Shown piece by piece: positions 11,913-53,496 of a stretch of 64,000 nt of DNA. A program made the translations under genes and the position numbers. The notes beneath the pieces are model-generated. The model searched no databases and was not told the origin of the DNA. It saw only the letters and a list, made by a program, of their open reading frames with translations. Numbering within the stretch: position 1 is the stretch's first letter; each line of letters opens with the position of its first letter. The DNA is from Nitrospirota bacterium (GTDB lineage: Bacteria; Nitrospirota; Thermodesulfovibrionia; UBA6902): positions 1-64,000 of the forward strand of contig JACRLN010000016.1 of assembly GCA_016215115.1 (NCBI GenBank). Reading direction: 5' to 3'.

Positions 11913-12650
11913 CTAATCTTTTTTCAAAAGCGAACCGGCGCTTTCATCAAGCAAAAAAAACAGTTTCCCTTTTTCCGGCTCCACCATTGCAGCGGGAAGC
12001 AAATTGTTTTTCCCTTCAATTACATCTTTTACTATTTTTGCCTTGTTTCCTCCTGTTACTAAAAACACAATATTTTTTGCCATGTTGATCACAGGGAATG
12101 TAATCGTTATCCGGTCCTTTTTTGTTTTATCCTTCGGTGAGACCGTCACTGCAAAGTGTCTTATTTCTTTAAGAGACGGGGTTTCAGGGAAAAGCGACGC
12201 CGTATGTCCGTCTTCGCCGATACCGAGCAGTATGAGGTCGAATTTCGGCAATGCGGTTTCTGCTGTCCTGAAGAAAGAAATCAAATCTTCCTCATATTTT
12301 TCTGCTGATTCCAGTGGAGTAACCTCTGATGTTGAAATGGGATGTACATTTTTTTTCGGTATACTGACGCGGGTCAAGAGGGTATTGTTTATCATATGAA
12401 GGTTGTTTTCTTCATCTTCATAAGGCACATAACGTTCGTCTGTCAGGAATACATGGGTTTTATTCCAGGGCAGTGTTCTTTTGTTCGAAAGTTTTTTATA
12501 CAGAAATTCCGGAGTCCTTCCGCCTGACAGAGCGACACTAAAATATCCTTTTCCTTTTATTGCTTTTTCAGAAATTGTTTTCCATTGAGCAATAACAAAA
12601 TCCGCCATATTATCAATTGTCTTGAAGATGATTATTTTCTTATTATTCAT
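11913..12650 (-). CDS. pgl: 6-phosphogluconolactonase
   Basis: Hydrolyses 6-phosphogluconolactone in the oxidative pentose phosphate pathway. 245 residues of the DevB/SOL type, with ALSGGRTPEFLYKKL, FLTDERYVP and LLGIGEDGHTASLFP. It sits just downstream of zwf, separated by a repeat, and gnd is upstream of zwf, so all three oxidative-branch enzymes are clustered on one strand. Confidence 0.93.
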   Translation of the reverse strand: MNNKKIIIFKTIDNMADFVIAQWKTISEKAIKGKGYFSVALSGGRTPEFLYKKLSNKRTLPWNKTHVFLTDERYVPYEDEENNLHMINNTLLTRVSIPKKNVHPISTSEVTPLESAEKYEEDLISFFRTAETALPKFDLILLGIGEDGHTASLFPETPSLKEIRHFAVTVSPKDKTKKDRITITFPVINMAKNIVFLVTGGNKAKIVKDVIEGKNNLLPAAMVEPEKGKLFFLLDESAGSLLKKD

Positions 12651-12684
12651 CTTTATTGCAGACTATGGTATCTGTCTCCTCCCG

Positions 12685-12760
12685 GCTGTCAGCGTTCAGC
12701 TATCAGCTTTCAGCGAAAAAATCTGGGACTGACGAGCTGACCGCTGATTGCTGATCGCTT
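12685..12760. repeat. Inverted 7-bp-period repeat between zwf and pgl
   Basis: Units CAGCGTT, CAGCTAT, CAGCTTT on the left pair with GACCGCTGATTGCTGATCGC on the right, forming a probable hairpin between the two genes. Confidence 0.65.
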
Positions 12761-12763
12761 GTT

Positions 12764-14320
12764 TTACCATATCCGCCATTGACGGCCTTCGCTTCCGATT
12801 AATTCCTCCGCTATTCCAGGTCCCCACGTTCCTGCAATGTAATTGGGGAATTCGGTAGCCGGGTTTTCTTCCCATCTTTTTATTATTGGGTCTACAACAG
12901 CCCACATGGCCTCAATGCCATCCTGTCGTGCAAAAAGCGTCTGGTCCCCTTTCATACAGTCCAGCAGCAAGCGTTCATACGGCTGGGGGAAGTGAACAGC
13001 GCCGGGGAAATCGCTTCCGTAGTTAAAGTTCATATTAACAGGATACAACTGATTGCCGATACCGGGATGTTTCACACCGAAATGCAGTATTATTTTTTCC
13101 TGCGGCTGTACCCCCAGCACGAGGGTATTCGGCTCCCTTATTTCACAAACGGTACTGAATAATTTCAATGGCGGTTGTTTGAAATGGATGCTTATTTCAG
13201 TAATCCGTTTTTTCAACCGCTTACCTGTCCGCAGATAGAATGGGACCCCTGCCCAGCGCCAGTTATCAATATATAATTTGCCGGCAAAAAAAGTCGAAGT
13301 ATTCGAATTCGGCGCAATATCTTTCTCATCGCGGTAAGCAGGAACTTTTTTTTCAGTTATCTCTCCTGCCCCATATTGGCCGCGTACGGTAAATCTGTCT
13401 ATATATTCATTATCCATCATTCTCATAGTGCGGTAGACCTTCACCTTCTCATCTCTGATATAGTCTGCTTCAAAACCTATCGGCGGCTCCATTGCCACAA
13501 GAGAAAGGAGCTGCATCATGTGGTTCTGTACGATATCTCTAACAACTCCGGCCTTTTCGTAAAACCGCGCCCTGTTTTCGACGCCGATAGATTCCGCAAC
13601 AGTTAATTGCACATGATCGATATAGCGTCGGCTCCACAGTGGTTCAAAGATGCTGTTTGCAAACCGGAAAAAAAGAATATTCTGGACCGTTTCTTTTCCA
13701 AGGTAATGATCGATGCGGTATATCTGTTTTTCATCAAAAGCCTTAGCAATAAGAGTGTTAAGTTCTCCGGCTGATTTTCTATCATGCCCGAAAGGTTTTT
13801 CCACAACCAGCCGGGTATTAAAAGTTCCTTTGCAGAGGTTGCATTGTGATAAACCTTCAATAATATCCGAAAGGAACTGGGGAGGAACAGCCATATAATA
13901 AATTACTTCTTTTGTTCCCCGGACAGCAGGTTTTGCAAGCTCCGCAAGGCGTTCGGAAAGTTTTTTATAGCTGTTCCTGTCATCAAAGCGGCCTGAAACA
14001 TAAAAAAGTTTTCGGCTAAAGCGTTCCCAGCAGGGCCAATGAATGGTTTCTTCACTGTATTCTTCAATAGCCCGCTTTACAAACAGGCGATAATCATCAT
14101 CTGAACGTTCTGTGGAGCCCACCCCGATAATTGAAAACTCTTCAGGGAGATTTTGATCGTGACAGAGATGAAAAAGAGTGGGTAGGAGCTTACGTCTGCT
14201 TAAATCGCCGGTGCCCCCGAATATGACCAGTGTGAATGGCTCGATGTCAAATTTCTCCGGAGCAATCTCGCAGAAGGGAACTGTATTTTCAATGACAGGG
14301 TTTTGTCCAGCGGATACCAT
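12764..14320 (-). CDS. zwf: Glucose-6-phosphate 1-dehydrogenase
   Basis: Oxidises glucose-6-phosphate to 6-phosphogluconolactone with NADP. IFGGTGDLSRRKLLP is the nucleotide-binding motif (about residues 34-48) and RIDHYLGKE the active-site signature (about 200). 518 residues is usual. The N terminus is about 25 residues longer than in many homologues; ATG at 14320 has GAGGG about 9 bases upstream. It is flanked by heptamer repeats and by gnd and pgl in the same orientation. Confidence 0.96.
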   Translation of the reverse strand: MVSAGQNPVIENTVPFCEIAPEKFDIEPFTLVIFGGTGDLSRRKLLPTLFHLCHDQNLPEEFSIIGVGSTERSDDDYRLFVKRAIEEYSEETIHWPCWERFSRKLFYVSGRFDDRNSYKKLSERLAELAKPAVRGTKEVIYYMAVPPQFLSDIIEGLSQCNLCKGTFNTRLVVEKPFGHDRKSAGELNTLIAKAFDEKQIYRIDHYLGKETVQNILFFRFANSIFEPLWSRRYIDHVQLTVAESIGVENRARFYEKAGVVRDIVQNHMMQLLSLVAMEPPIGFEADYIRDEKVKVYRTMRMMDNEYIDRFTVRGQYGAGEITEKKVPAYRDEKDIAPNSNTSTFFAGKLYIDNWRWAGVPFYLRTGKRLKKRITEISIHFKQPPLKLFSTVCEIREPNTLVLGVQPQEKIILHFGVKHPGIGNQLYPVNMNFNYGSDFPGAVHFPQPYERLLLDCMKGDQTLFARQDGIEAMWAVVDPIIKRWEENPATEFPNYIAGTWGPGIAEELIGSEGRQWRIW

Positions 14321-14341
14321 ACTTAAAATCCCTCATTATAT

Positions 14342-14475
14342 AAACTTTTGAAAACCACTGAGTCCCTGAGACGAGAAAAGTGCGGAAGTCTGGAAGCTCG
14401 GAAGTAAAAGACTTCCTAACTTCTGAACTTCCGCGCTTCCGAACTTCATACTCCGTGCCTCTGTGACTCCGTGGT
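14342..14475. repeat. Composite inverted repeat with CGGAAGT heptamers
   Basis: Outer arms of the ACCACTGAGTCCCTGAGAC / GCCTCTGTGACTCCGTGGTT type enclose CGGAAGT-like heptamers (GTGCGGAAGTCTGGAAGCTC) and their complements. Nearly the same block occurs in the opposite orientation at 40690-40785. It sits between gnd and zwf. Confidence 0.75.
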
Positions 14476-15377
14476 TATTCAACTTTTTTTACAGCGTGGC
14501 CTCCGAATTCATTGCGCAGCGCGGCGATCACCTTTGCACTGAAAGATTCATCCTGACGCGAATGGAAACGCTCTAATAGTGATAATGTAATCAACGGAGC
14601 AGGGATATTTTGTTCAATTGCTTCCGCAACGGTCCAGCGACCCTCTCCTGAGTCCTCAACAAAGCCGCTTATTGAAGATAATGTGGGGTCTTTACTGAAA
14701 GCATTTTCTGCAAGCTCCAGCAGCCATGAGCGTATAACACTGCCATGATTCCATAAGTTGGTTATCTTTTGAAGGTCCAGGTTGAATTCTTTCTTGGCAT
14801 TCATGATCTCAAAGCCCTCAGCATATCCCTGAAGTAATGCGTATTCGATTCCATTGTGAACCATTTTTACAAAATGACCGGCTCCATTTGGGCCCACATG
14901 AGCATAACCGTTTTCCGGTGACAGAGCTTTAAATATCGGTTCTACGCCCCGCAAGACATTTTTTTCACCGCCAATCATTAAACAATAGCCTTTTTTAAGT
15001 CCCCATATCCCGCCGCTTGTTCCGACGTCAAAGAATGCAATTTTTCTTTTTTTCAGTTCCTCCGCCCTGCGTATTGAGTCTTTGTAAAAAGAGTTACCCC
15101 CGTCAACCAGGATATCCCCATCCTCCAAAAGGGGAACGATCTTGTTTATAGTCTCTTCAGTTGCGTCCCCGGCAGGGACCATAAACCAGATTAGACGAGG
15201 TTTTTGCAGTTTATCCACAAGGTCCTGTAGAGACAAGGCCCCGACAGCGCCTTTATCTTCCGCTTTTTTTACCGTTTCAGATGTCCTCGAATATGCAACA
15301 ATTTCATGGCCGCTGCTCAGCAAACGCTGCACCATATTCATTCCCATTCTGCCAAGACCAATAAAACCGATTCTCAT
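14475..15377 (-). CDS. gnd: 6-phosphogluconate dehydrogenase, decarboxylating (short GndA/YqeC type)
   Basis: Produces ribulose-5-phosphate and CO2 from 6-phosphogluconate. GFIGLGRMGMNMVQRLL is the dinucleotide motif, DGGNSFYKDS and GTSGGIWGLKKGYCLMIGG the substrate region, and GHFVKMVHNGIEY contains the catalytic lysine. At 300 residues it is the short, often NAD-preferring form. ATG at 15377 has GGAG about 8 bases upstream. It is the first gene of the gnd-zwf-pgl group. Confidence 0.94.
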   Translation of the reverse strand: MRIGFIGLGRMGMNMVQRLLSSGHEIVAYSRTSETVKKAEDKGAVGALSLQDLVDKLQKPRLIWFMVPAGDATEETINKIVPLLEDGDILVDGGNSFYKDSIRRAEELKKRKIAFFDVGTSGGIWGLKKGYCLMIGGEKNVLRGVEPIFKALSPENGYAHVGPNGAGHFVKMVHNGIEYALLQGYAEGFEIMNAKKEFNLDLQKITNLWNHGSVIRSWLLELAENAFSKDPTLSSISGFVEDSGEGRWTVAEAIEQNIPAPLITLSLLERFHSRQDESFSAKVIAALRNEFGGHAVKKVE

Positions 15378-15790: not shown

Positions 15791-18205
15791 ATGGCACGAG
15801 GTTGTTGCGGGACAAAAAGAGAGGAAAGAATCAAGAAGTACAGTCTGGATTACTGGAAGGTTGCAAAGCCTACTCTTAGGACTTTTAAAGCGAACGACAG
15901 TTTATTTTCACCCGAATATATCGAAAAGCGAAAAAACGGGATATCCCTCTTTATAGATCCTAAATTGCCGAACTGGATCAGTGTTAATAATACGGGAGCG
16001 GAGATAATCAGGCTTTGTGACGGCAAACATACGGTATCCGGGATTCAGGAAGCTATTTGCAAGAGATACAATCCTTCCAATAGGGAACAGGTAAAAAGAG
16101 AGGTCTTAGAATTTCTCAGTGCAGCAGGACTTCTTGAGTTTGTATCTGATAATAAACTCAGTAGACCCGAATATCCAGGCAGAAGCAAAGCAATTGCCCC
16201 ATACAAGTTAGATGAACTGTGGATATATTCTACACTTGCCTGTAATTTAAGGTGCAAGCACTGTCTTGTTAGCGCAGGAACAAGCCTGAAAAAGGAATTA
16301 ACTACAGAAGAGATTAAAGAGATTGTAGACGAAGCGATAAAACTCGGGGTTAAACGGTTTTACATCACAGGCGGCGAACCGTTTATAAAAGATGGGATTT
16401 TTGAACTTATAAAATATATTACAAAAACAAAAAATCGTGATCTCATTGTACTCACAAACGCCACACTCTTTGACGATAAAAAGATAAAAGCGCTGAAAAA
16501 GGTGATGAGTCCCAAACTTCTCCTTCAGGTAAGTCTGGAAGGGCCCAATGCCGGAATTCATGACAAACTACGCGGCGAGGGAAGTTTTTATGCGGCCTTG
16601 AACGGGATCAAAAAACTGATCGGCATCGGAATAGTCCCCATTATCTCAACTGCGATCAGTAAATACAATGAAAAGGAGATCGCAAAGACCTCCCGCTTCT
16701 TATCAAAACTTGGCATAAAAGAGCACAATCTTCTCTGGATGCATGCAAAGGGACGGGGTGCAAATAATGTAAACGAACTGCTTGTGCCTTCAGATAGAAT
16801 TGCACATATAATGAAAGATCTCAAAAAGTCATATAAAGAACAGGAAGTTATTTTAGACAATATCGAATCCTTGAAGGTCCGCGTACGCGCCAAGAGAGGG
16901 AGAAAAAATGACCTTTGCAACAATTGTTATGAAAAAATTTGCGTGAATTCAGATGGTCATGTATATCCATGCGCATCTTTGAATGGCGACCCGAAATTTG
17001 ATGCAGGTTCTGTAAGAAAAAAATCTTTGAAGGAAATCTGGCTTAATTCTAAGGTTATGATCAGAGGCCGGGGAAACAGCGTTCACAATAAAGCCGAATG
17101 TAGCGCCTGCTATCTTCAGTACTTCTGCGGCGGCGGATGCACCTCTCACAGTTATTATGCAAGCGAGGTCGAAACCGGCAAGGGGGCTGTAACAGCTTGT
17201 GACCCTTATTGTTCCACTTATAAGTCAATGTTTAAAGACATTATTTGGGAATTGGCTTCTGAAGGAGTTCCTCCGCAGAATGGAAAAGGCTATTCTGCAG
17301 CCCTTGTTTATAATGCGATGGACTCAAAACTCCCGTCGCATCTGGGCGCCGGTATTAAATCAATTAACAAGGAATTCGAGGTCGGATGCTACCACTGTTC
17401 CTGTGTGCTGTCAGTTGATGTTGAAGGTGACGAGGAGGTTTGCAAACCTGAAATAAAAGGGCATGTAACGAAGACCGTGAAAAAGAAATTTTCAAAAGCC
17501 GCCTACATGCCGGTTGCTGATTATTACTGCCCTACCGGTTATGATCCAAAAGAACTGAAGCATATTCCCAATGAAGTGCTGGAAGTTTCATATGGATGCG
17601 GAAATCCCGCGGCACTTGCAGATATAAAAGAAGGCGAGACCATTGTGGATTTGGGCGCAGGCGGCGGCATTGACTGCTTTATTGCCGCAAAAAAACTTGG
17701 CATAAAAGGGAAGGTGATCGGCATAGACATGACCGATGAAATGGTGGAAACAGCAACTGCCAATGCTGAGAAAGTTGCTAAAGTTTTGGGATACAATGTC
17801 GTAGAGTTTAGAAAAGGGAATATTATGGAACTCCCTGTTGATAGCAATTCGGTGGATCTTGTCATATCCAATTGCGTTATTAATTTAACGGAGGATAAGA
17901 CAAAGGTGCTTGATGAAATATACAGGATATTGAAGCCGGGCGGCAGATTTATTATCTCTGATATTGTTTCTGACAAGCCGGTGCCGGGCTACCTGAAAAG
18001 AGACAAGGAACTATGGAATGCATGTCTTTCCGGAGCGCTTACGGATATGAGGTTTAAAGAGGCGGCGGAAAACGCAGGTTTCCCCGACGTTCAATTGACA
18101 AAAAACTATCTCTATAAAAAAGTAGAGTATATACAGTTTTATTCAGTAACCATGAAAGGCACAAAACCCCTGAAAGTCGCGTCCGGGTGTTATGCCTGTG
18201 GTTAA
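15791..18205 (+). CDS. PqqD-like / radical SAM-SPASM / ArsM-like methyltransferase fusion
   Basis: 804 residues in three parts. Residues 40-115 resemble a PqqD-type peptide- or substrate-binding domain. Residues 145-480 form a radical SAM domain with CNLRCKHC (C151, C155, C158) and a SPASM region with clustered cysteines (CNNCYEKIC, CSACYLQYFCGGGC). Residues 575-780 are an arsenite S-adenosylmethionine methyltransferase-like domain with VDLGAGGGID. Cysteines in YGCGNP (C603), SNCVINL (C695) and CLSGAL (C745) match the As(III)-binding cysteines of ArsM, and the 50-residue gap between the last two equals the 174-224 spacing in known ArsM. Cysteine motifs also cap both ends (GCCG and SGCYACG). 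ATG 15791 follows GGAG by 7 bases. Reaction and product are unknown; organoarsenic chemistry is my inference. Confidence 0.85.
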   Translation: MARGCCGTKREERIKKYSLDYWKVAKPTLRTFKANDSLFSPEYIEKRKNGISLFIDPKLPNWISVNNTGAEIIRLCDGKHTVSGIQEAICKRYNPSNREQVKREVLEFLSAAGLLEFVSDNKLSRPEYPGRSKAIAPYKLDELWIYSTLACNLRCKHCLVSAGTSLKKELTTEEIKEIVDEAIKLGVKRFYITGGEPFIKDGIFELIKYITKTKNRDLIVLTNATLFDDKKIKALKKVMSPKLLLQVSLEGPNAGIHDKLRGEGSFYAALNGIKKLIGIGIVPIISTAISKYNEKEIAKTSRFLSKLGIKEHNLLWMHAKGRGANNVNELLVPSDRIAHIMKDLKKSYKEQEVILDNIESLKVRVRAKRGRKNDLCNNCYEKICVNSDGHVYPCASLNGDPKFDAGSVRKKSLKEIWLNSKVMIRGRGNSVHNKAECSACYLQYFCGGGCTSHSYYASEVETGKGAVTACDPYCSTYKSMFKDIIWELASEGVPPQNGKGYSAALVYNAMDSKLPSHLGAGIKSINKEFEVGCYHCSCVLSVDVEGDEEVCKPEIKGHVTKTVKKKFSKAAYMPVADYYCPTGYDPKELKHIPNEVLEVSYGCGNPAALADIKEGETIVDLGAGGGIDCFIAAKKLGIKGKVIGIDMTDEMVETATANAEKVAKVLGYNVVEFRKGNIMELPVDSNSVDLVISNCVINLTEDKTKVLDEIYRILKPGGRFIISDIVSDKPVPGYLKRDKELWNACLSGALTDMRFKEAAENAGFPDVQLTKNYLYKKVEYIQFYSVTMKGTKPLKVASGCYACG

Positions 18206-18234
18206 AAAATAACTAAGAAAAAGGGAAGGGAACT

Positions 18235-19719
18235 ATGAGAGTCACTTTGGTAAATGCACAGGTATTAGACGGCAATAACGTTGTTCCGCCATTAGGACTT
18301 ATGTATATTGCCGCTGTTTTAGAAAAAGCAGGGCATGCCGTTCAGATTTATGATTCAGACCCGGATTATCAGGCAAGTATGATAAAAGATATAAAGGATT
18401 TTAATCCTGATTTGATAGGACTCAGTTTCTTGACCGTAGGATACCAGAGGGCTTTACACCTGATGCAAAACCTGAAAAAGGAACTGCCTAATAAAATATT
18501 CTGCTCCGGCGGTGTTCATACAACTGTTAAGCCCAAAGAGACATTGGAAGAGTTTGGGGTTGACTTTATCGTAGTAGGAGAAGGAGAAGACACTATTATT
18601 GAAGCATGTCAGAAATTGGGAAATAACGAGGGTCTCGCAGGTGTAAAAGGTGTGATGTACCGTGATAACGGCACTGTTATAGACAATGGCAGACGTGACA
18701 TGATACAGGACCTTGACACAATCCCATTCCCCGCACGCCATTTAATAGATATGAAGCCCTATCTCAAGCCGCCGGGAATAATAAGGGGCTATGCAACTAA
18801 AAACCAGACGACAATTGTTACAAGCAGGGGCTGCCCCTTCAAATGCATATACTGCGGCAGTCACAACATCTTTGGCCGGAAGACAAGGAGACGCTCGGTT
18901 AAAAACGTTGTTGATGAAATAGAGCATCTCTACAAAAATTACGATATAAAAGGAATATATTACTGTGATGATACATTCACGTTGAGTCCTAAATGGGTAA
19001 TGGAATATTGCGAGGAGCTAAAGCGGAGAAACCTGAACATAAAATGGGGCTGCCAGTCAAGGGTGGACCAGACAGACATGGCATTAATGAAATTGATGAA
19101 AGAATCAGGCCTGGTCCAGCTTGATTTCGGCGTTGAAAGCGGCTCCGAAAAAATTCTCAGGGTTTTGGGCAAGGGCGGCGCCGGAGACAGAACTGCGCAG
19201 ATTAAACATTCATTCAAACTCTGCCAGGATCTTGACATCAGAACACTGGCAACATTCATTATCGGAAACCCGGAAGAAACCAGAGAAGATATCGAGCAGA
19301 GTTTTCAGGTAGCAAAAGATATTAATGCAGATTATACAGCCTTCTATTTCCTGACGCCTTATCCGGGAACAGATATTTATGATATGGCTATTAAAAACGG
19401 GTGGCTGGACCCCAATCTCCCTTTCTCGGAGATATGGGCGCACAGGCAACCTGAACTGCCTCTCATGGCAATAACATTTCAGCAGGAGGAACTCAGGGAT
19501 ATCCGCAGAAAACTGCAGAACGCTTTCTTTGTAAAAAATTATTTCACCCGGAAGAGCAACATAAGCTTTTATTCCATACTGTTCACTATACTTTTCAGAC
19601 ATCCAAAGGTTTTCCTCGATGCTTTCGGGAAGCTGATAAGAACCCGCAGGATTGATTATATTGTTGAGACCCTCAATGCAGAATACTGGAGGATGAAAAA
19701 ATACGAGGGCCTTGGGTAA
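18235..19719 (+). CDS. B12-binding radical SAM protein
   Basis: 494 residues. An N-terminal cobalamin-binding Rossmann domain (PPLGLMYIAAVLEKAGH, then FNPDLIGLSF and GGVHTTVKP) is followed by a radical SAM domain with SRGCPFKCIYCGS and a C-terminal helical region. Members of this class methylate unactivated carbon or phosphorus centres, or carry out other radical steps, in lipid and natural-product synthesis. It starts 29 bases after the fusion gene behind a good ribosome site (AAGGGAAGGG), so the two form an operon and probably one pathway. The substrate is unknown. Confidence 0.87.
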   Translation: MRVTLVNAQVLDGNNVVPPLGLMYIAAVLEKAGHAVQIYDSDPDYQASMIKDIKDFNPDLIGLSFLTVGYQRALHLMQNLKKELPNKIFCSGGVHTTVKPKETLEEFGVDFIVVGEGEDTIIEACQKLGNNEGLAGVKGVMYRDNGTVIDNGRRDMIQDLDTIPFPARHLIDMKPYLKPPGIIRGYATKNQTTIVTSRGCPFKCIYCGSHNIFGRKTRRRSVKNVVDEIEHLYKNYDIKGIYYCDDTFTLSPKWVMEYCEELKRRNLNIKWGCQSRVDQTDMALMKLMKESGLVQLDFGVESGSEKILRVLGKGGAGDRTAQIKHSFKLCQDLDIRTLATFIIGNPEETREDIEQSFQVAKDINADYTAFYFLTPYPGTDIYDMAIKNGWLDPNLPFSEIWAHRQPELPLMAITFQQEELRDIRRKLQNAFFVKNYFTRKSNISFYSILFTILFRHPKVFLDAFGKLIRTRRIDYIVETLNAEYWRMKKYEGLG

Positions 19720-19761: not shown

Positions 19762-19867
19762 GTCATTCCCGAGGTCTTTATCGGGAATCCAGTTTCTTTA
19801 ATATTATGGTTCCCCATTTTCACGGTGACGACGTCTGGATTCCCGCTCAACGGACTGCGGGAATGAC
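19762..19867. repeat. GTCATTCCCG inverted repeat (dRS3-like)
   Basis: Begins GTCATTCCCGAGGTC and ends GACTGCGGGAATGAC. Each side itself contains an inner palindrome of the ATTCCCG..CGGGAAT type. It occupies the 318-base gap after the radical SAM operon. Six other copies lie in the window (25.5, 41.3, 42.7, 43.7, 56.0 and 61.5 kb). Confidence 0.75.
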
Positions 19868-20037: not shown

Positions 20038-20661
20038 ATGATCAAGAAGATCTTCCCTAAAGAAATCAATTTCTTTGAAATGTTTGAAAAGGCCGCTCTG
20101 AACGTCAATAGAGGCGCAACCTCGCTTGTCGAAATGATGGATAATTTTGGAGTTGCTGAAGCAAAGGCAAAAGAGATATATGAAGCGGAGCAGGAAGGAG
20201 ACATGCTTACCCATGAAGTTCTGCGGAGGCTTAACAAAACCTTTATTACGCCGCTTGACAGGGAGGATATTCATTCCCTTATCAGCCGTCTGGATGATAT
20301 CCTTGATTTAATCTGGGCCTCGGCAGACAGGGCCGTTTTGTTCAAGTTAAATAATCCCCTGCCGGATGCTGCTGAACTGGCAAAAACCCTCCATGAAACC
20401 ACAGAGATAATCACAAAGGCTATCAGTTGCCTTAAAGGTAAGAAATATTCATATATCCAGGAATACTGTATTGAAATTAACAGGCTTGAAAACAGGAGTG
20501 ACAGGATTTTTCGGGAAGGGCTTGTTAAATTATTTGATAATATAAAAGACCCCATCATTGTTATTAAGTGGAAAGAGGTTTATGAACATCTCGAAGACGC
20601 CAGCGACACATGCGAAGACGTTGCAAACATCCTCGAAAGTATAGTTCTTAAACATGCATGA
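20038..20661 (+). CDS. DUF47/PhoU-like regulator of phosphate transport
   Basis: 207 residues, all helical, of the DUF47 (YkaA-type) family: FFEMFEKAALNVNRGA near the start, EAEQEGDMLTHEVLRRLNKTFITPLDREDI and DRIFREGLVKLF. Such proteins pair with PiT transporters and are thought to control them. It overlaps the pit gene by 8 bases. Confidence 0.9.
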   Translation: MIKKIFPKEINFFEMFEKAALNVNRGATSLVEMMDNFGVAEAKAKEIYEAEQEGDMLTHEVLRRLNKTFITPLDREDIHSLISRLDDILDLIWASADRAVLFKLNNPLPDAAELAKTLHETTEIITKAISCLKGKKYSYIQEYCIEINRLENRSDRIFREGLVKLFDNIKDPIIVIKWKEVYEHLEDASDTCEDVANILESIVLKHA

Positions 20662-21646
20662 TACCTATTTTCTCCTTGTTTGTGTAATAGTCCTTGCCAC
20701 CATTTTTGATTTCATTAATGGCTTTCACGACACTGCAAATGCAATAGCCACATCTGTATCGACAAGGGTTTTATCACCCAGAGTTGCCGTTTCGATGGCT
20801 GCGATACTAAATCTGGTTGGAGCCCTGACGGGGACAGCGGTTGCTAAAACAGTGGGAGCAGGACTTGTGGAGGCTGTAAGTATCACACAACTTACGGTAG
20901 TTTCCGCCCTTCTGTCTGCAATTATATGGGATCTGATCACATGGTATTTTGGATTGCCTACATCTTCAAGTCACGCACTTTTGGCAAGCATACTCGGTGC
21001 GACGGTAGCTACCGCCGGAACAGAAGTTATAATCCAAAAAGGCGTATATAAGGTATTAATAGGACTTGTTTTTTCCCCCCTTATTGGGTTTTTGCTCGGA
21101 TTTCTTCTTATGTTATTCCTCATATGGCTGTTCGGAAGGTCACCGATTGCATTTGTAAATTCATTCTTCAACAGGGCACAGATAATATCAGCGGCTTATA
21201 TGGCATTTAGTCATGGCAATAATGACGCTCAAAAGACAATGGGCATCATCACAATGGCGATCGTAAGTTATTATAAGCTTCCGGACTTTAATGTGCCGTT
21301 GTGGGTGATGATTCTGTGCGCAACAGCTATGGCGCTTGGCACGGCGATCGGCGGCTGGAGGATAATAAAAACACTTGGGGTGCGTCTGGTCCACCTGCAG
21401 CCTATTCACGGTTTTGCAGCAGAGGCGTCGGCTGCCACAGTCATAGAAATCGCATCCAGAATCGGGCTTCCTCTTTCAACAACCCATATAATTTCCTCCA
21501 CAATTTTGGGAGTCGGGTCTACAAAAAGAGCCTCTGCAGTCAGATGGGGAATTGCAAAAAATATCGTGATGGCATGGATCCTCACTTTACCAATGTGCGC
21601 AATCCTGGCCTGGCTGATTTATAAAGCGTTGGTAATGGTGTTATGA
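20654..21646 (+). CDS. pit: Low-affinity inorganic phosphate transporter PiT
   Basis: 330 residues, about ten membrane helices, with the duplicated PiT signature: GFHDTANAIATSVSTRVLSP at the N side and SHGNNDAQKTMGII in the second half. It would import metal-phosphate complexes using the proton or sodium gradient. It lies directly after, and overlaps, the DUF47 gene. Confidence 0.92.
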   Translation: MHDTYFLLVCVIVLATIFDFINGFHDTANAIATSVSTRVLSPRVAVSMAAILNLVGALTGTAVAKTVGAGLVEAVSITQLTVVSALLSAIIWDLITWYFGLPTSSSHALLASILGATVATAGTEVIIQKGVYKVLIGLVFSPLIGFLLGFLLMLFLIWLFGRSPIAFVNSFFNRAQIISAAYMAFSHGNNDAQKTMGIITMAIVSYYKLPDFNVPLWVMILCATAMALGTAIGGWRIIKTLGVRLVHLQPIHGFAAEASAATVIEIASRIGLPLSTTHIISSTILGVGSTKRASAVRWGIAKNIVMAWILTLPMCAILAWLIYKALVMVL

Positions 21647-30953: not shown

Positions 30954-32924
30954 ATGAAACGAGATTATTATTCTGACTCTATAGCCAATTTTCTGCAAAC
31001 ATCATCCGATGAACTAATCGGCAAGCTGACTGAAAGTGCTGGTGACTTACAAAAAACTCAGACTCATGCGTGGCACGAAGAGATAAAAATCCTAAGCGAG
31101 ACCTTGCGCTCGTACAAAGGATTTATCTATTTCGAGTACTCAATCCCTCGTATGGGGCGGCGGATTGACGTTGTCCTTTTAATAGGGTCAGTTATTTTTG
31201 TTCTGGAATTTAAGGTTGGAGATGATGCATTCCATTTACATGCTGTTGATCAGGTATGGGATTATGCCTTAGATTTAAAAAACTTCCATGAATCAAGTCA
31301 CCATCAATTCATAGCCCCCATTCTTATTGCAACTGAAGCAAAACATATAGATTCTAATATTACCGTTAATCATCAAAATGACAAGCTCTTACTCCCAATC
31401 AAAACAAATGGCAGGCTACTTGGTTCAACAATTGAAAATGTGCTACGTTTTGCCAGTGGAGAGAGCATTGATCCATCACAGTGGGAGAGTGGACGATACT
31501 GTCCAACTCCAACAATCATTGAAGCAGCAATGGCGCTATATAATAATCACTCAGTAGCTGATATCTCTCGCAGTGATGCCAGTGCGATCAATCTAAGCCA
31601 AACATCCAACGCTATTTCTAAAATAATCCGATTATCTCGCCATAACTCTCATAAGACTATCTGCTTTGTTACCGGGGTCCCGGGCGCAGGTAAAACATTA
31701 GTTGGGCTTAACATTGCAACAACACATATTAATAAGTCCGATGACTTGTACAGTGTATTTCTGTCTGGAAATGGACCACTTGTTGCAATTCTTCGTGAGG
31801 CACTTGCTCGCGATAAGGTATTGCGTGAGAAAGAGAACGGATTAAAAAGCAGGAAGGGCGCAGCACTAAGTGAAGTAAAGATGTTTATTCAAAATGTGCA
31901 TCACTTCCGTGATGCTTGCCTTGTGGACTTAAATCCACCAATTGAACATGTTGCACTATTTGATGAGGCTCAGCGAGCATGGAATCGTGAGAAGACTGTA
32001 GATTTCATGCGCAGAAAAAAGAAAAGAACGGACTTTCGCCTGTCTGAGCCTGAATTCCTTATTTCCTGTCTTGATCGTCATGCTGATTGGGCGGTAGTAG
32101 TGTGTCTTGTCGGAGGAGGACAAGAAATTAATACTGGTGAAGCTGGAATCAGTGAATGGATTGAATCGCTGAATCGTTCATTTCCTAATTGGCATGTCTA
32201 CATTTCTCCACGCCTGACTGACAGTGAGTACGGCGCAGGCGAGGTATTGAGATCATTAGACTCGCGAAAAAATGTTGTGTACAAAGAAGACTTGCACCTC
32301 GCAGTATCAATGCGCTCATTTCGTGCGGAACATGTCTCCCTTTTAGTCAAACAATTGCTCGATTTGGAGGTTGAATTAGCTCAAGAGACTTTCAAGAAAG
32401 TAAGCCCGAAATACCCCATCGCTCTTACGCGAGATATTGGCAAAGCTAAACTGTGGTTGAAAATGCAGGCGCGTGGTTCGGAGCGATATGGTATCGTTGT
32501 CTCATCTCAGGCTGAGCGTCTAAAGCCACACGCGATTGATGTAAAATCACCTATGAATCCAATTCATTGGTTCCTCGATAATAAGGATGATGTGCGGTCA
32601 TCGTACTATCTTGAAGATGTCGCTACCGAATTTGATGTGCAGGGATTGGAACTCGACTGGGTGTGTGTGACATGGGATGCTGACTTTCGCTATTCTAAGA
32701 AAGGTTGGGAGCATCGGTCATTTTGTGGCACACGCTGGAATCGCATAAATAAAGGTGAGAGAAAGATCTATCTGAAAAATGCCTATCGTGTTTTGCTAAC
32801 TAGGGCACGACAAGGAATGATAATCGTTGTTCCGAATGGAGATACTGAGGACCCAACACGCGCCCCTGCGTTTTATGATGATACTTTCCATTACCTGAAA
32901 AATATTGGGTTTCCTGTAATTTAG
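30954..32924 (+). CDS. DUF2075 nuclease-helicase-like protein
   Basis: 656 residues. The N-terminal region has a PD-(D/E)xK-like signature ([20 protein letters not shown], about residues 65-84). The ATPase core has Walker A GVPGAGKT (about 241-248), Walker B FDEAQRAW (about 325) and late helicase motifs ([30 protein letters not shown]), as in DUF2075/Schlafen-like superfamily 1 helicases. The predicted role is nucleic-acid cleavage or remodelling, plausibly phage defence given the island around it. No known defence system is complete here. Intact, with no frameshifts. Confidence 0.8.
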
Positions 32925-44749: not shown

Positions 44750-45304
44750 ATGAATAAAATACTCCGAGATCCGCATCAGGTTAAATTGTTTGTCGGGATG
44801 CTTTCACAGGATGTCTCTCTTTTTGAACAGGCCGGGGAAATACTCAAAAATATTTTTGGCCCTTCTGATATGGAAAGCCTGGTGTGGCCATGGGAGCATA
44901 CAGAGTATTATTCAAAGGAAATGGGTACAGGCTTGAAAAGGAAGTTTATGTTTTTCAAAAATCTGATAGACCCGGGAACTATTTCAGAGACTAAACTGAA
45001 AACTATTGAGATTGAAAGACAATACCTGAATGAAAAAGGCGGCAGAACGATAAACCTTGACCCGGGATATTTAGATTCAGCAAAGATTGTTCTGGTTTCA
45101 ACTAAAGATTTTTCCCACAGAATCTATCTTGGCAATGGAATATATGGAGAAGTTACACTTATTTATTCAGGCAAGAACTATCAAATACTTCCATTTACAT
45201 ATCCTGATTTTAGAACTTCGGAATATCTTGATATTTTCAGGAAAGCGAGAGAGATTTATAAAGATGCCAGTAGGGGCGGGGGAACCCCGCCCCTACTTTA
45301 TTAA
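44750..45304 (+). CDS. DUF4416 protein
   Basis: 184 residues matching DUF4416: HQVKLFVGMLSQDVSLFEQA at the start, YYSKEMGTGLKRKFMFFKNL, KGGRTINLDPGYL and FTYPDFRTSEYLDIF. Function unknown, common in Nitrospirota and deltaproteobacteria. The last residues (SRGGGTPPLL) are encoded by a 27-bp palindrome at 45270-45296, so the natural C terminus has been changed. The gene converges with, and overlaps, the BPL_N-like gene by 12 bases. Confidence 0.85.
   Translation: MNKILRDPHQVKLFVGMLSQDVSLFEQAGEILKNIFGPSDMESLVWPWEHTEYYSKEMGTGLKRKFMFFKNLIDPGTISETKLKTIEIERQYLNEKGGRTINLDPGYLDSAKIVLVSTKDFSHRIYLGNGIYGEVTLIYSGKNYQILPFTYPDFRTSEYLDIFRKAREIYKDASRGGGTPPLLY
45270..45296. repeat. GTAGGGGC-family palindrome at two gene ends
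   Basis: GTAGGGGCGG...CCGCCCCTAC with a GGGAACCCC-like core. It encodes the tail of the DUF4416 protein on the plus strand and supplies the TAG stop codon (45293-45295) of the BPL_N-like gene on the minus strand. Confidence 0.85.
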
Positions 45305-46591
45305 AGAAAATAAAACCTTATCCACTTCGTCAATCAACTCTTTAAACATACCACCGTGACTTTTTGATCCGGAAAACAGTTCTGCCCGCATCTTTTGAAT
45401 CTCAGGGTCGTCGCATTTTTCGTATGTAATATGTCCTTTTTGCAAAGCATAGCGTTCCAATATAAGAAGCTTTTTGGCTTTTTCGGTAAATGAAATTAGT
45501 AAGTTTTTAATGCTATTAAGATCATTCATTTGTAGGGGCAATTCATGAATTGCCCCTACATTTATTCTTGTTCTTCTGACAATTTCCTTTATCATAATAT
45601 ACAGCGTATTGTATTCAAGCCCTCTAACACCCCGTCTCCACTGTAAGAGCATCGGATTCCTCCGGAACCAGAGGAAATTCCGCTCGCCAAGGGAGATGAG
45701 GTCAGAACACAGGGCGAAGAGCTCGGAAGCTCGGAAGCTCGGAAGCTCGGAAGTTTTTGCTTTTGCACTTCCGCACTTCCGCGCTTCCGCACCCCTCTGT
45801 TTACCTCCAAGGTATCCCCACAAGTTTCTCAAAACCTGATGCCCGTTGTTATCTTCCGGGGTATCAAAGTGGATAAGCGATAAGATTACTTTCCCTTTGC
45901 CATAGCGTCCTTCTAATAGTGCCGGTTCGTTTAGTAACTGTTCCGGATTAAGTTTTATCTGGTAAACCTTTTCATATTCTGTCCATCCTCCATGAGCTTC
46001 AACATCCCCGGCATTCAGGTCTGAGCTGAAGGAATCAGGCAGTGCTTTTCCGTATGTGGCAAGTACCCTAACGCGTTTATCTTTAATCACAAATTGCGAG
46101 GGCCACCAGGCGTGAAATACAAGTTTTGAGTTTTGAGTTTTGAATTTTGAGTTAACTTCTGCCTTCTGCCTTCTGCCTTCTGCCCTTAAAAAGTCTTTCC
46201 ATACCGGATGTTCGTTCAGATTTAGATAAATTCTTCCGCTGAAACTCGGTACCCTTTCTTTTGTCGGCTTTCGTGTAATATTCAGAAGCCCGATGCCGTC
46301 GAGGGTGGCAAGCCCGGCGCCTCCGCAGAAGCCAAGATAATTGCCGCCATTTTTTACAAACTCTCGTATCGCCTCTGTCCCTTTGTCACTCAGTGCCTTT
46401 TTTTTGTTTGACGCCCACCCGCCAGGGACAAAGAGCATTTTGTAATGCTTAAGGCATCCATTTTTAATGTCATCTGCCCTCACAAGATCAAACAGCAGGC
46501 CGAGATTTTGTAATGCCCTGTGTGCCATTAACCCCCAGAGAAATGATTCGTCCCAGAGAAAGGCGACTTTACACTCCATATTTCTTTTCAT
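45293..46591 (-). CDS. BPL_N-like (class I glutamine amidotransferase-like) protein with three repeat inserts
   Basis: 432 residues. The N-terminal 260 match the biotin-protein-ligase N-terminal (BPL_N) type of amidotransferase-like fold (VAFLWDESFLWGLMAHRAL, MLFVPGGWASNK, NYLGFCGGAGLAT). Three blocks are repeat-encoded: one with RRQKAEVNSKFKTQNSKL, one with RKCGSAKAKTSELPSFRASE, and RINVGAIHELPLQ. All keep the frame. It overlaps the cbiG-cbiH gene by 23 bases and ends the cobalamin operon. Its role there is unknown. The stop codon comes from a palindrome copy. An alternative ATG lies at 46579. Confidence 0.72.
   Translation of the reverse strand: MKRNMECKVAFLWDESFLWGLMAHRALQNLGLLFDLVRADDIKNGCLKHYKMLFVPGGWASNKKKALSDKGTEAIREFVKNGGNYLGFCGGAGLATLDGIGLLNITRKPTKERVPSFSGRIYLNLNEHPVWKDFLRAEGRRQKAEVNSKFKTQNSKLVFHAWWPSQFVIKDKRVRVLATYGKALPDSFSSDLNAGDVEAHGGWTEYEKVYQIKLNPEQLLNEPALLEGRYGKGKVILSLIHFDTPEDNNGHQVLRNLWGYLGGKQRGAEARKCGSAKAKTSELPSFRASELFALCSDLISLGERNFLWFRRNPMLLQWRRGVRGLEYNTLYIMIKEIVRRTRINVGAIHELPLQMNDLNSIKNLLISFTEKAKKLLILERYALQKGHITYEKCDDPEIQKMRAELFSGSKSHGGMFKELIDEVDKVLFSLIK
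45531..45560. repeat. GTAGGGGC palindrome with AATTCATGAATT core, in frame in the BPL_N-like gene
   Basis: A perfect 30-bp palindrome read as V-G-A-I-H-E-L-P-L-Q. The other two frames contain TGA or TAG. Confidence 0.95.
45717..45794 (-). repeat. In-gene CGGAAGC heptamer array, BPL_N-like gene
   Basis: Five CTCGGAAG units and complementary CTTCCGC units around a TTTTTGCTTTTG spacer, translated in frame. Confidence 0.85.
46121..46185 (-). repeat. In-gene array of GCAGAAG and CAAAACT units, BPL_N-like gene
   Basis: Same composite block as in thiL (9838-9916), in the same orientation relative to coding; both encode FKTQNSKL. Confidence 0.85.
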
Positions 46592-48539
46592 ATCCTCTCG
46601 GCGTTATCATCAGGTTATTCCACACAAATGTCTGTGAATTACCAATTATCACGGTTGTCTGCATATCAATTTTGTGCTCAAGCATATTTTTAAGATTTGT
46701 AATGACTATCTCCTCATTTTCTCTCATAGCGCCTTTTACTATTCCTGCAGGGGTGTCAGGATTTCTGTATTTCAAGATAATATCCCGTGCCTTGTTAATA
46801 TGTTCCGGTCTCCCTTTGCTTTTGGGATTGTATAACACAATAACAAAGTCAGCCATCGCAGCGGATTCGAGCCTTTTTTCTATAAGCTTCCATGGCGTTA
46901 ATCTATCTGAAAGACTTATTGACGCAAAGTCATGCATAAGAGGAGAGCCGAGTCGGGCAGCACAAGCATTCAAAGCAGATATGCCGGGAATGACTTCAAC
47001 GGAAAGCGATGAAGCGAGGAAGCGGGGAAGTTCGTAAGTCTTTTCTTGCGCACTTCCGCGCTTCCGCACTTTCACGCTTCCGCGCTTCATCGCTTCCGCG
47101 CTTAATAATTCAAACACCAGTCCCGCCATTGCGTATATGCCCGGGTCTCCTCCGCTGATAATGGAGACCGTTTTCCCTGACAGCGCAAGTTCAACCGCTT
47201 TCCTGCACCTGTCAACCTCCTGGGTCATGCCGGTTGAAACGATCTCCTTGTCCTTAATCAAGCCTTCTATCAAATCAAGGTAGGTCCCGTATCCGACGAT
47301 AGCATCCGATTCCCTGATAGCTTCCTGCGCACGCGGCGTGATGTGCTCAATGCCTCCCGGGCCTGTACCGACGATGAAAAGTTTACCGTAAGCGGGTAAG
47401 TTCGTAAGCGTGGAAGTTCGTAAGCTTTTTCTTTCCCGCTTCCGCGCTTCCGCGCTTCCGCGCTTTCTCTGCTCTGCCACTGCCACTGTCACATTCCCTC
47501 TTTTTTGTTTTTTTACAAGCAATGTATCAGCTTCTGCCGCAAGCAATGCCGCAGGCTCTGCCACCGCATAGGCGCCTGTTGCCTTGAACGCGGCATTTGA
47601 AAGGCTGATTGCTGATTGCTGACGGCTGAATGCTGAATTAAGTTCATCGGGAGTGAACGTATTAACTTTAAACTTGTATTTTCTGGCAAATGAAATTAGA
47701 CCGGGCTCATTCCCCTTCTTGTCAATAGTTGCGATGGAGTGAATGGAAGCGAAAGCAAGGTTGTTTGCTCCCAAGGTCTTTTTAACTGTATTCTCTATCT
47801 CATCTGCTGAGGTCCTGCTGTTACATCCGATGCCGATGACAAGATTTTTGGGACGCAGATAGAGTTTTGAGTTTTGCAGTTTAAATTTTGAATTTTTGTT
47901 AGTAATTAACATATCTGCGTGAGCCGGATTATCAACCTGTATGAATTCTTTGGGTAGGGGCAATTCATGAATTGCCCCTACATCTGCATATACTTTCAAA
48001 ACACCTTTATTGATAAGTTTTGTGGCAATCTTCGGAATGAGCTTCCAATTCTCAATAACAAGATTGTTCTTTCTTGCCCACATGTCAATGGATGGCAGAT
48101 TGTTCACATCTGAAGCTGTAGTTATCACTGCATTACCTTTCAGAAAATCCGCAAGCTCTTCCGCAATCCTGTTGGCCCCGCCAAGATGACCGCTTAGAAA
48201 GCTGACGGCATATCGGCCTTTTTCATCAACTACGACGACCGCCGGATCGGTATTTTTGTCTTTTACAAGAGAGGAAATTGTCCTTACGACAATGCCTGCC
48301 GCCATGATGAAGATAAGACTTCCTGATTCATTCCAATATCGTCGTAAAGGCGAACGGCTGTTCGCCCCTACGGATGTAAATTTTATAATCCGTGCGTCAG
48401 GATACAAAGTTTGAATTCGCTGCGCAAGCTTGAGACTGTTATTTGTAATATAAAATATTGCGGTGGTGACAGACGTTTTCTTGTTTTCGCTGACTGCTGA
48501 CCGCTGACTGCTAATCGCTGTTTTATTTTCTGTAGCCAT
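46569..48539 (-). CDS. CbiG-CbiH fusion: cobalt-precorrin-5A hydrolase and precorrin-3B C17-methyltransferase
   Basis: 656 residues. Residues about 25-330 are CbiG (LIFIMAAGIVVRTISSLVKDKNTDPAVVV, FLSGHLGGANRIA, VIGIGCNSRTSADEIE), which opens the delta-lactone of cobalt-precorrin-5A. Residues about 385-656 are CbiH/CobJ (FIVGTGPGGIEHITPRAQEA, IISGGDPGIYAMAGLVFELL), which contracts the ring at C17. At least six blocks are repeat-encoded: SSQRSAVSE, GANSRSPLRR, DVGAIHELPLP, FKLQNSKL, SRQQSAIS and two heptamer arrays giving RKRGSAEARKR and VRKRGSAQEK. All keep the frame. Confidence 0.88.
   Translation of the reverse strand: MATENKTAISSQRSAVSENKKTSVTTAIFYITNNSLKLAQRIQTLYPDARIIKFTSVGANSRSPLRRYWNESGSLIFIMAAGIVVRTISSLVKDKNTDPAVVVVDEKGRYAVSFLSGHLGGANRIAEELADFLKGNAVITTASDVNNLPSIDMWARKNNLVIENWKLIPKIATKLINKGVLKVYADVGAIHELPLPKEFIQVDNPAHADMLITNKNSKFKLQNSKLYLRPKNLVIGIGCNSRTSADEIENTVKKTLGANNLAFASIHSIATIDKKGNEPGLISFARKYKFKVNTFTPDELNSAFSRQQSAISLSNAAFKATGAYAVAEPAALLAAEADTLLVKKQKRGNVTVAVAEQRKRGSAEARKRERKSLRTSTLTNLPAYGKLFIVGTGPGGIEHITPRAQEAIRESDAIVGYGTYLDLIEGLIKDKEIVSTGMTQEVDRCRKAVELALSGKTVSIISGGDPGIYAMAGLVFELLSAEAMKRGSVKVRKRGSAQEKTYELPRFLASSLSVEVIPGISALNACAARLGSPLMHDFASISLSDRLTPWKLIEKRLESAAMADFVIVLYNPKSKGRPEHINKARDIILKYRNPDTPAGIVKGAMRENEEIVITNLKNMLEHKIDMQTTVIIGNSQTFVWNNLMITPRGYEKKYGV
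47008..47105 (-). repeat. In-gene heptamer array 1, cbiG-cbiH
   Basis: GAAGCGAGGAAGCGGGGAAG on one side and repeated CTTCCGCG/CTTTCACG units on the other; encodes the region around VRKRGSAQEK in the CbiH half. Confidence 0.85.
47392..47465 (-). repeat. In-gene heptamer array 2, cbiG-cbiH
   Basis: GTAAGTTCGTAAGCGTGGAA and CTTCCGCG units; encodes the linker between the CbiG and CbiH halves. Confidence 0.85.
47954..47981. repeat. GTAGGGGC palindrome with AATTCATGAATT core, in frame in cbiG-cbiH
   Basis: A perfect palindrome encoding V-G-A-I-H-E-L-P-L in the CbiG half. Confidence 0.95.
48344..48371. repeat. GTAGGGGC-family palindrome with a different core, in frame in cbiG-cbiH
   Basis: Same ends (one mismatch) with a GAACGGCTGTTC-like core. 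It encodes V-G-A-N-S-R-S-P-L. Confidence 0.85.
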
Positions 48540-49287
48540 GTTTGAAATCTTTATGATAAAGCTTCGATTCCTTTTTCAATTGCTTTTCAGATGCTCTCAA
48601 TGCTTCACCAATATATATTAATGCGGTTTTCTGAATGGTTGCATTCTTAACCAGTTCTACAATATCTTTCAAGGTCCCCCTGACAATCTTCTCTTCGGGC
48701 CATGATACTTTTTCTACAACCACCACCGGTGTATCTTCAGTATAACCCTCTAACAATTCATCCCTGACTTTTTCAATCAAGCCGACACTTAAAAATATCA
48801 CCATCGACGTCCCGTGTTTCGCAAGGTCCCCGAGTCTTTCTTTCTCAGGAACAGGAGTCCTGCCTTCAATACGGGTGAATATAACGGACTGACTTATTTC
48901 AGGGATGGTAAGTTCCTGTCCTAACAATGCTGCGCCTGCAGAGGCGGAAGATACACCGGGGATGACCTCGTATGGAATATTCAATTCACGTAGTCTCTCT
49001 ATCTGTTCCGATATTGCGCTGTAAAAAGCGGTGTCTCCGGTATGAAGCCTGACAATAAGTTTGCCGTTATCAAAAGATTTTTTAATGAGATTGATTATTT
49101 CGTCAAGAGTCATTCCTGCTGAATCATATATCACCGCCCTGATTCCCGTAAGCAGCTCCGGATTAATAAGGCTTCCTGCATAAATAACAACATCAGCTTT
49201 GTATAATAAATTCCTTCCTTTGATGGTGATCAACTCCGGATCGCCCGGGCCTGCGCCGATGAAAAAGACTTTATTTTGTTTGGACAC
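48523..49287 (-). CDS. cbiF: Precorrin-4 / cobalt-precorrin-4 C11-methyltransferase
   Basis: 254 residues of the corrin SAM methyltransferase fold: VFFIGAGPGDPELITIKGRNLL at the start, LHTGDTAFYSAISEQI, YEVIPGVSSASAGAALLGQELT and TPVVVVEKVSWPEEKIVRGTL. It adds the methyl at C11 in the ring-building sequence. It overlaps both neighbours slightly (16 and 17 bases). No repeat insert is seen. Confidence 0.93.
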   Translation of the reverse strand: MSKQNKVFFIGAGPGDPELITIKGRNLLYKADVVIYAGSLINPELLTGIRAVIYDSAGMTLDEIINLIKKSFDNGKLIVRLHTGDTAFYSAISEQIERLRELNIPYEVIPGVSSASAGAALLGQELTIPEISQSVIFTRIEGRTPVPEKERLGDLAKHGTSMVIFLSVGLIEKVRDELLEGYTEDTPVVVVEKVSWPEEKIVRGTLKDIVELVKNATIQKTALIYIGEALRASEKQLKKESKLYHKDFKHGYRK

Positions 49288-50068
49288 TTTGCAACCTTTC
49301 AGATATATATTTGTTAATTTCCGCTACTGCCTTTAAGATATCATTTGTTTGCGGCAATTTTTGAGCCAGACTTTTTATATAGTCACGTTCCTTCAGTAAC
49401 CGGAAGGAACCATTAAAATGCAGGTCATAAACCCATGACAGCTTCATCAGCTTGAAATCATTTATATTCTTTACCTTCGAATAGGAAGCGATCTTTCTGT
49501 CATTTATTCTTAATAATATATCTTTTGAATATTCCGGAGTATCCGGTTTGTTATGAGCTGTTGCAGAGGCACGTTCCTCTTCGGGGGCTTCGTAAAATAC
49601 AATGAATACGCGCCAGATATCAAGTTTGTCGGCATCCCGTATCATTTTTAAAAAGAATAAAGTTTTATTATTTATTGATTTTGGTATGGTAAGGGCACAA
49701 TGGAATTTCACAACCTGTTTTATTAAATCCTGTTCATCTTTAGGGATTTGTCCAAGTACATCACTGTGAATCAATGTCTTTGTCCCAAGAAGACCGTGGT
49801 TGATAGAATCTGCATCTCTGAAGGTCTTGTACTTTGCATATTGCGGGAACCTTCCCACATCATGAAAAAGCGCCAAGGTCTCAGCAAGTCTTTTATCATT
49901 ATCATCGAGAGAAAGATCATTAGTTATTTCAATTATATTTTTACATACATTGCGTGTATGGTCTACTTTAAGCATGATGTTTTTCTGATCTTCTTCATTG
50001 GAAGAATAAAAGGATTTTGTAAAATCAGAAAACCAGTTTTTGAAATATTCCAGATCCTTTTCGGTCAT
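49271..50068 (-). CDS. HD-domain hydrolase within the corrin operon
   Basis: 265 residues. HD phosphohydrolase signatures: LKVDHTRNVCKNI, LALFHDVGRFPQYAKY (HD), NHGLLGTKTLI, VKFHCAL and IRDADKLDIW. The family removes phosphate from nucleotides or similar substrates. It overlaps cbiL by 4 bases (ATGA) and cbiF by 17, so it is translated together with the ring methyltransferases. That suggests a function tied to the pathway, which is not known. No repeat insert is seen. Confidence 0.83.
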   Translation of the reverse strand: MTEKDLEYFKNWFSDFTKSFYSSNEEDQKNIMLKVDHTRNVCKNIIEITNDLSLDDNDKRLAETLALFHDVGRFPQYAKYKTFRDADSINHGLLGTKTLIHSDVLGQIPKDEQDLIKQVVKFHCALTIPKSINNKTLFFLKMIRDADKLDIWRVFIVFYEAPEEERASATAHNKPDTPEYSKDILLRINDRKIASYSKVKNINDFKLMKLSWVYDLHFNGSFRLLKERDYIKSLAQKLPQTNDILKAVAEINKYISERLQSVQTK

Positions 50069-53409: not shown

Positions 53410-53434
53410 GTTAAATCATATCCGACCTATCACG

Positions 53435-53464
53435 TGTAGGGGCAATTCATGAATTGCCCCTACA
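53435..53464. repeat. GTAGGGGC palindrome with AATTCATGAATT core, between genes
   Basis: A perfect copy, extended by ACG/CGT on both sides, in the 87-base gap between the radical SAM/SPASM gene and cbiD. Confidence 0.95.
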
Positions 53465-53496
53465 CGTCTGTGTTCTGTATTCTTTTTGTCTGCCTT

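Follow-up and report, generated by a model that had tools for sequence, protein, structure and literature searches.

Radical S-adenosylmethionine (SAM) enzymes ArsS and ArsL are the precedents for radical arsenic-carbon chemistry (PMC8552651), and in the literature that we searched they represent the two radical SAM routes to natural non-methyl arsenic-carbon bonds. Each is paired with the arsenite methyltransferase ArsM: ArsM and ArsS form the pair of arsenosugar biosynthesis, exemplified by Synechocystis SsArsM/SsArsS (Xue et al. 2019, as cited in PMC8552651), and ArsL and ArsM form the radical SAM/ArsM pair needed for arsinothricin (PMC8552651). Here we describe a gene in a 64,000-nucleotide stretch of a Nitrospirota draft genome (GenBank assembly GCA_016215115.1, contig JACRLN010000016.1, positions 1 to 64,000; hereafter, the window) that joins a PqqD-like domain, a radical SAM-SPASM domain, and an ArsM domain in one polypeptide. 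We consider this fusion probably to be a bifunctional organoarsenical synthase of the arsenosugar type, in which the PqqD-SPASM radical SAM half takes the place of ArsS.

The locus resembles the ArsM-ArsS system in combining an ArsM-type methyltransferase with a radical SAM enzyme, in having TIGR04282, TIGR04283, and VTT-domain genes nearby or in the genome, and in the occurrence of ArsM-ArsS fusions in the same class; it differs in that the radical SAM half is of the PqqD/SPASM type, precedes ArsM in the polypeptide, and seems to stand in for ArsS rather than to be ArsS itself. With the arsinothricin enzymes (NF040542, NF040538) it shares a radical SAM enzyme and an ArsM for forming an arsenic-carbon bond, but ArsL and ArsM are separate proteins and ArsL is not of the SPASM type. 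Its N-terminal half has the layout of SPASM maturases of ribosomally synthesized and post-translationally modified peptides (RiPPs) that carry an RRE domain (CteB, SuiB, SkfB, AlbA), radical SAM and SPASM domains coming after a PqqD-like one. Our literature search, which left most subscription journals out of its scope, returned no paper on an ArsM-SPASM or ArsM-PqqD fusion, and the sole co-mention of ArsM and SPASM was unrelated.

Architecture of the operon and the arsenic site

The fusion gene (15791-18205; this and all features below are on the forward strand unless marked otherwise) encodes 804 residues, and the second gene (18235-19719, 494 residues) starts 29 bp after it. Open reading frames and Pfam matches agree with the original prediction, made from the sequence of the window, of a PqqD-like/radical SAM-SPASM/ArsM-like fusion followed by a B12-binding radical SAM enzyme. 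The fusion comprises a PqqD-like (RRE-type) domain (residues 56-110, 15956-16120; PF05402, 4.4e-10, above the cutoff), a radical SAM core (residues 146-304, 16226-16702; PF04055, 7.1e-26) with the motif CNLRCKHC at residues 151-158, a SPASM region (residues 376-474, 16916-17212; PF13186, 1.8e-8 over residues 376-441), a cysteine tail, CYHCSC (C533, C536, and C538; 17387-17404), and an ArsM domain (about residues 558-793, 17462-18169) whose Pfam match to a class I methyltransferase covers residues 612-754 (2e-33). The CxxxCxxC motif and the SPASM cysteine pattern place the N-terminal half among radical SAM/SPASM proteins.

The best NCBIfam match of the C-terminal third is PRK11873, "arsenite methyltransferase" (3.8e-75; 252.9 bits, just under the cutoff of 263), with the arsinothricin and arsenosugar ArsM models scoring behind it. 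In alignment with the solved ArsMs 4kw7 and 5evj, the motifs YGCGNP, SNCVINL, and CLSGAL pair with YGCG, SNCV, and CLGGAL, so that C603 (17597-17599) is the equivalent of C72 in CmArsM, and C695 (17873-17875) and C745 (18023-18025) are the equivalents of its As(III) ligands C174 and C224; the 50-residue spacing between the last two had been read from the sequence together with the match to the As(III) site, and both hold. C580 (17528-17530) lies in a segment aligned with the cysteine-bearing N-terminal region of ArsM and may be the equivalent of CmArsM C44. Among aligned proteins of the close group, C580, C603, and C695 are invariant (33/33), as is C745 in the 30 that reach that position; homologs thus keep these cysteines, and keep them at the arsenic site. 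An AlphaFold2 model built from 44 aligned relatives (mean predicted local distance difference test score [pLDDT], 83.8) has As(III)- and S-adenosylhomocysteine-bound CmArsM (6cx6) as its top Protein Data Bank match in Foldseek (2.2 Å, 37% identity, 1.2e-19), the comparison suggested with the original prediction; an earlier model from close homologs alone (pLDDT, 60.7) was not used. The ArsM part is, by its modeled structure, a true arsenite methyltransferase fold with an intact arsenic site, and it would be expected to methylate.

The C-terminal domain of ArsM is missing from the window's clade. The Cys-rich end there, GCYACG (18188-18199; GCCACG in several relatives), is variable and gave no sign of selenocysteine read-through; many relatives have a TAA stop codon after it, and others have TGA.

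Distribution and gene neighborhoods

A scan of 84,980 species genomes by exact peptides, which extended to other phyla and would miss 40%-identical relatives, found the fusion in 38 loci (63 to 94% identity), all of them Nitrospirota or apparently mis-titled relatives; the arrangement is therefore not a chance one. The bacteria that carry it live in soil and groundwater and form a deep-branching group. In a sample of the class, the fusion occurs in 38 of the roughly 43 genomes from the window's order and in no genome from outside it, and the second gene is distributed in almost the same way, a pattern that fits core inheritance better than a mobile or patchy resistance trait.

The second gene directly follows the fusion in 31 loci (in most of the remaining loci the sequence stops or is truncated close to the fusion) and is the more conserved of the two (88% mean column identity). 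Its B12-binding (PF02310, 1e-24) and Radical_SAM (PF04055, 2e-22) domains make it a B12-binding radical SAM protein, with AprD4 (6fd2) as its nearest solved relative. It resembles the class of HpnJ, BchE, and AprD4, its closest relatives and none of them a methylase, in domain order and in its NCBIfam matches, but those matches (130 to 216 bits) are far under every equivalog cutoff, and it is a constant fusion partner in one order only.

By searching the phylum with the inter-domain segment as query, we found complete diverged fusions (35 to 42% identity) in families f33, f35, f36, f37, f40, and f42 (loci L054-L070) and a fragmentary one in f34 (L071). One genome, G290, carries three diverged copies (L066, L067, and L068). 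Diverged fusions have no B12 radical SAM partner, so the conserved pairing anticipated for the two genes stands in the window's order and does not extend to them. In family f23 the halves are on separate genes: the PqqD-like/radical SAM-SPASM proteins (L072, L076, L077, and L078) stop exactly at GYHCSCVL[TS]V, which identifies the fusion's CYHCSC as the C-terminal cysteine tail of the radical SAM half, and the ArsM proteins (L081, L111) share 54 to 56% identity with the window's ArsM domain. An extension resembling the ArsM C-terminal domain, ending in CC, is present in the diverged fusions and the split ArsM.

These diverged and split versions have neighbors named for arsenic. The f23 radical SAM gene shares 16 bp with a gene for TIGR04282 (203 bits; cutoff, 134), an NCBI-named "arsenosugar biosynthesis glycosyltransferase," and this in turn overlaps a GDPD gene, a layout also found in L076, L077, and L078 (three genomes). 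Next after the f23 ArsM gene are a VTT-domain gene and a gene for TIGR04283 (275 bits; cutoff, 182), a family that bears the same name. A VTT-domain gene also adjoins the diverged fusion in at least six loci, and in L065 VTT, Pit-type permease, and TIGR04283 (227 bits) genes all lie within 3 kb of it. In related genomes, then, the neighbors are linked to metalloids, in keeping with the original prediction.

Complementary distribution with ArsS

Of 396 genomes sampled evenly across the phylum, 369 lie outside the window's order. Among these 369, the fusion or its split version occurs in 21 and ArsS in 207, with no genome having both (Fisher test, P = 1.4e-8; 5.9e-16 for the same exclusion among TIGR04282-positive genomes, both values ignoring phylogeny). 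TIGR04282 is present in 196 of 207 genomes with ArsS only (95%), 29 of 33 with the fusion or split version only (88%), and all 10 with both, compared with 23 of 146 (16%) with neither. Families f34 and f37 each include ArsS members and fusion members, and the contrast is therefore not the effect of a single clade. Outside the window's order the fusion thus has the profile expected of an ArsS counterpart, co-occurring with TIGR04282 and excluding ArsS, and this complementary distribution suggests that the radical SAM half has replaced ArsS without being its ortholog, presumably with similar chemistry.

In ArsS-bearing relatives (L122-L125), ArsM adjoins ArsS and the TIGR04283-TIGR04282 pair is located elsewhere. 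One ArsM-ArsS fusion in the same class (L104, 5780-7828) lies between TIGR04283 and VTT/TIGR04282 genes, and frames of about 660 to 700 residues in genomes G014, G052, G072, G082, G086, G093, and G095 are probably ArsM-ArsS fusions too, judging from their length. The ArsM-ArsS fusion is an independent precedent for ArsM joined to a radical SAM enzyme.

Conserved cysteines of the radical SAM half

In the close group (n = 33), the invariant cysteines are C5, C6, C76, the radical SAM triad, nine in the SPASM region, and C536, C538, C551, C580, C603, C629, and C695. Across close, diverged, and split versions together, the set that never varies is the radical SAM triad (CxxxCxxC), C538, C580, C603, C695, and C745. 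C536 is kept in close and split versions, and C384 is present in every one of the 14 diverged fusions and missing from a single split protein. By comparison, the SPASM cysteines C394 and C450 are lost in 14 of 14 diverged fusions, where the auxiliary-cluster cysteines are degenerate, and from this pattern of loss we infer that the SPASM auxiliary clusters are dispensable. C538, perhaps with C384, may act as a metalloid relay. Two diverged fusions (L069, 4239-6908; L070, 5440-8106) have an intact radical SAM triad with most SPASM cluster cysteines replaced and offer a natural test of the need for auxiliary clusters. A vicinal pair near the N terminus, C5-C6 (MARGCCG; 15803-15808), is putatively metalloid binding and is present in 33 of 33 close-group proteins and missing from most diverged fusions.

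Proposed function

In the pathway that we propose, the ArsM half would bind As(III) through C603, C695, and C745 and methylate it with SAM, while the PqqD-SPASM half would cleave SAM and join a carbon radical, most likely 5′-deoxyadenosyl as in ArsS, to trivalent arsenic. The cysteine tail (C538, with C536 in most versions) could take arsenic from the ArsM site or hand arsenic to it. TIGR04282 and TIGR04283 glycosyltransferases encoded elsewhere in the genome would then act on the product. In the window's order, the B12-binding radical SAM enzyme might modify the ribose-derived part, a tentative assignment made because its relatives HpnJ and AprD4 act on sugar-like moieties.

Evenly balanced, in our judgment, is the wider proposal that the fusion represents a third family of radical SAM enzymes forming arsenic-carbon bonds, of the PqqD/SPASM type and fused to ArsM, in which one polypeptide would convert arsenite and SAM to an adenosyl- or sugar-type organoarsenical as part of a core, vertically kept pathway that in one order has its own B12 radical SAM tailoring and yields an undescribed arsenic metabolite. 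If true, life would have a new way to make arsenic-carbon bonds, by an enzyme fused to its own methyltransferase and fixed across a whole order of environmental bacteria, and such a non-orthologous third route would widen organoarsenical biosynthesis. It would also imply hidden organoarsenic production by groundwater and subsurface Nitrospirota and provide a tractable one-protein system in which to follow trivalent arsenic as it moves between the thiolate site of a methyltransferase and a radical enzyme.

Several observations weigh against a synthase of the arsenosugar type. The ArsS model (TIGR04167) scores the fusion at 68.7 bits (cutoff, 300) and covers model residues 5-147 alone. PqqD and SPASM domains are normally linked to peptides. 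The window itself has no arsenic-specific neighbor of the operon, TIGR04282 and TIGR04283 are arsenosugar glycosyltransferases by NCBI naming alone, with no assay found, and some TIGR04282 genes adjoin moeA. The distribution statistics, as noted, take no account of phylogeny. Inside the window's order, moreover, the fusion and ArsS occur together in 10 of 22 genomes of the phylum sample and 14 of 41 of the class sample, including the window's own genome, so that with co-occurrence in about a third to a half of the fusion-bearing genomes sampled exclusivity fails there.

The ArsS cluster of the window's own genome is on another contig and has an ArsR-family regulator, an HpnH-like radical SAM gene, and TIGR04283, with no ArsM; TIGR04282 is on a third contig. 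The HpnH-like gene beside ArsS (adenosyl-hopene transferase type; L094, 8036-9127; 109 bits) recalls an enzyme, HpnH, that also transfers 5′-deoxyadenosyl. Genomes G004 and G083 of the window's family have several paralogous ArsS-like genes over the TIGR04167 cutoff, for which expanded organoarsenic metabolism or other chemistry is possible.

Alternative functions

An unlikely alternative is that arsenic receives a different part of SAM from the radical SAM half (3-amino-3-carboxypropyl, as in ArsL) or some other carbon radical, and that the ArsM half then methylates an amino-acid-like arsenical as in arsinothricin synthesis. Arsinothricin does need just such a radical SAM/ArsM pair, NCBIfam names a cysteine motif, RCCLKC, for ArsL, and the arsinothricin ArsM model matches the fusion's ArsM domain (208 bits; cutoff, 500); however, the radical SAM half is of the SPASM type, the fusion is absent from the ArsL (NF040542) matches listed (the second gene scores 60.7 bits against a cutoff of 450), and we saw no ArsQ-like or otherwise matching neighbor, the linkage being to TIGR04282, TIGR04283, and VTT genes.

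More doubtful still is detoxification by arsenic methylation, with the radical SAM half providing an accessory reductive or volatilizing step. The ArsM site is intact and Pit-type permeases stand beside some copies, but the genome already has a separate acr3-arsM-LMWPc resistance operon 77 kb away and another ArsM beside an ArsR-family gene, and near-universal conservation across the order fits a core pathway better than patchy resistance. The exclusion of ArsS also counts against detoxification.

We regard as very unlikely a RiPP maturase, with the PqqD and SPASM parts acting on a ribosomal peptide and the methyltransferase half adding methyl groups or metal to it, in spite of that architecture and of Foldseek matches of the N-terminal half to SkfB, SuiB, and CteB. 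In 35 loci, neither the 800 bp preceding the fusion nor the 700 bp following the second gene contains a conserved short open reading frame, the recurring reads being only antisense or out of frame to an upstream gene; a peptide scaffold is therefore not supported. Unlike RiPP maturases, the fusion carries an ArsM, its diverged members lose SPASM auxiliary cysteines and keep the arsenic cysteines, and the split halves sit with glycosyltransferases rather than peptides. Of the organic or peptide scaffold for arsenic envisaged in the original prediction, the organoarsenical pathway gains support from the arsenosugar-named neighbors of the split version and the exclusion of ArsS outside the order, and the peptide does not gain any.

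A different soft element or thiol as the in vivo substrate (selenium, antimony, tellurium, or cysteine) is likewise very improbable: thiolate sites bind several soft elements and some selenoprotein fusions contain ArsM-like methyltransferases (NF041536, NF041537, and NF047649 among the NCBIfam matches), but the full arsenic-site set is invariant, the state that the model matches is the As(III)-bound one, and the link is to arsenosugar-named genes.

Other features of the window

Genes flanking the operon (pgl-zwf-gnd, Lon, ThiL-like, and Pit) were considered as clues to function and rejected, being kept with the fusion among near relatives only. The oxidative pentose phosphate genes pgl-zwf-gnd (11913-15377, reverse strand), divergent from the fusion, recur only in the close relative L009. 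Just downstream of the operon are a DUF47 (PhoU-like) gene and a Pit-type phosphate permease gene (20038-21646), and Pit-type permeases also stand beside two diverged fusions (L065, L067); arsenate might enter the cell through the permease. Because 14 loci have a divergent GAF/sigma-54 activator, a sigma-54 promoter was looked for ahead of the fusion, but none was present in 35 upstream regions.

Genes for cobalamin biosynthesis occupy 45293-54825 and 60012-61481 (reverse strand) and encode CbiD, CbiG fused to a tetrapyrrole methylase, further TP_methylases, and a CobQ-type amidotransferase; a radical SAM/SPASM protein (53497-54825) adjoins CbiD in this cluster. It is plausible that these genes supply B12 for the second gene of the operon.

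An interspersed palindromic repeat (GTCATTCCCG...CGGGAATGAC) lies at 19762-19867 and at eight further sites in the window, the 10-mer having 10 matches compared with 0.07 expected, and one copy separates the fusion operon from the Pit operon. A helicase-domain protein of Schlafen group 3 type (30954-32924) is possibly defense related.

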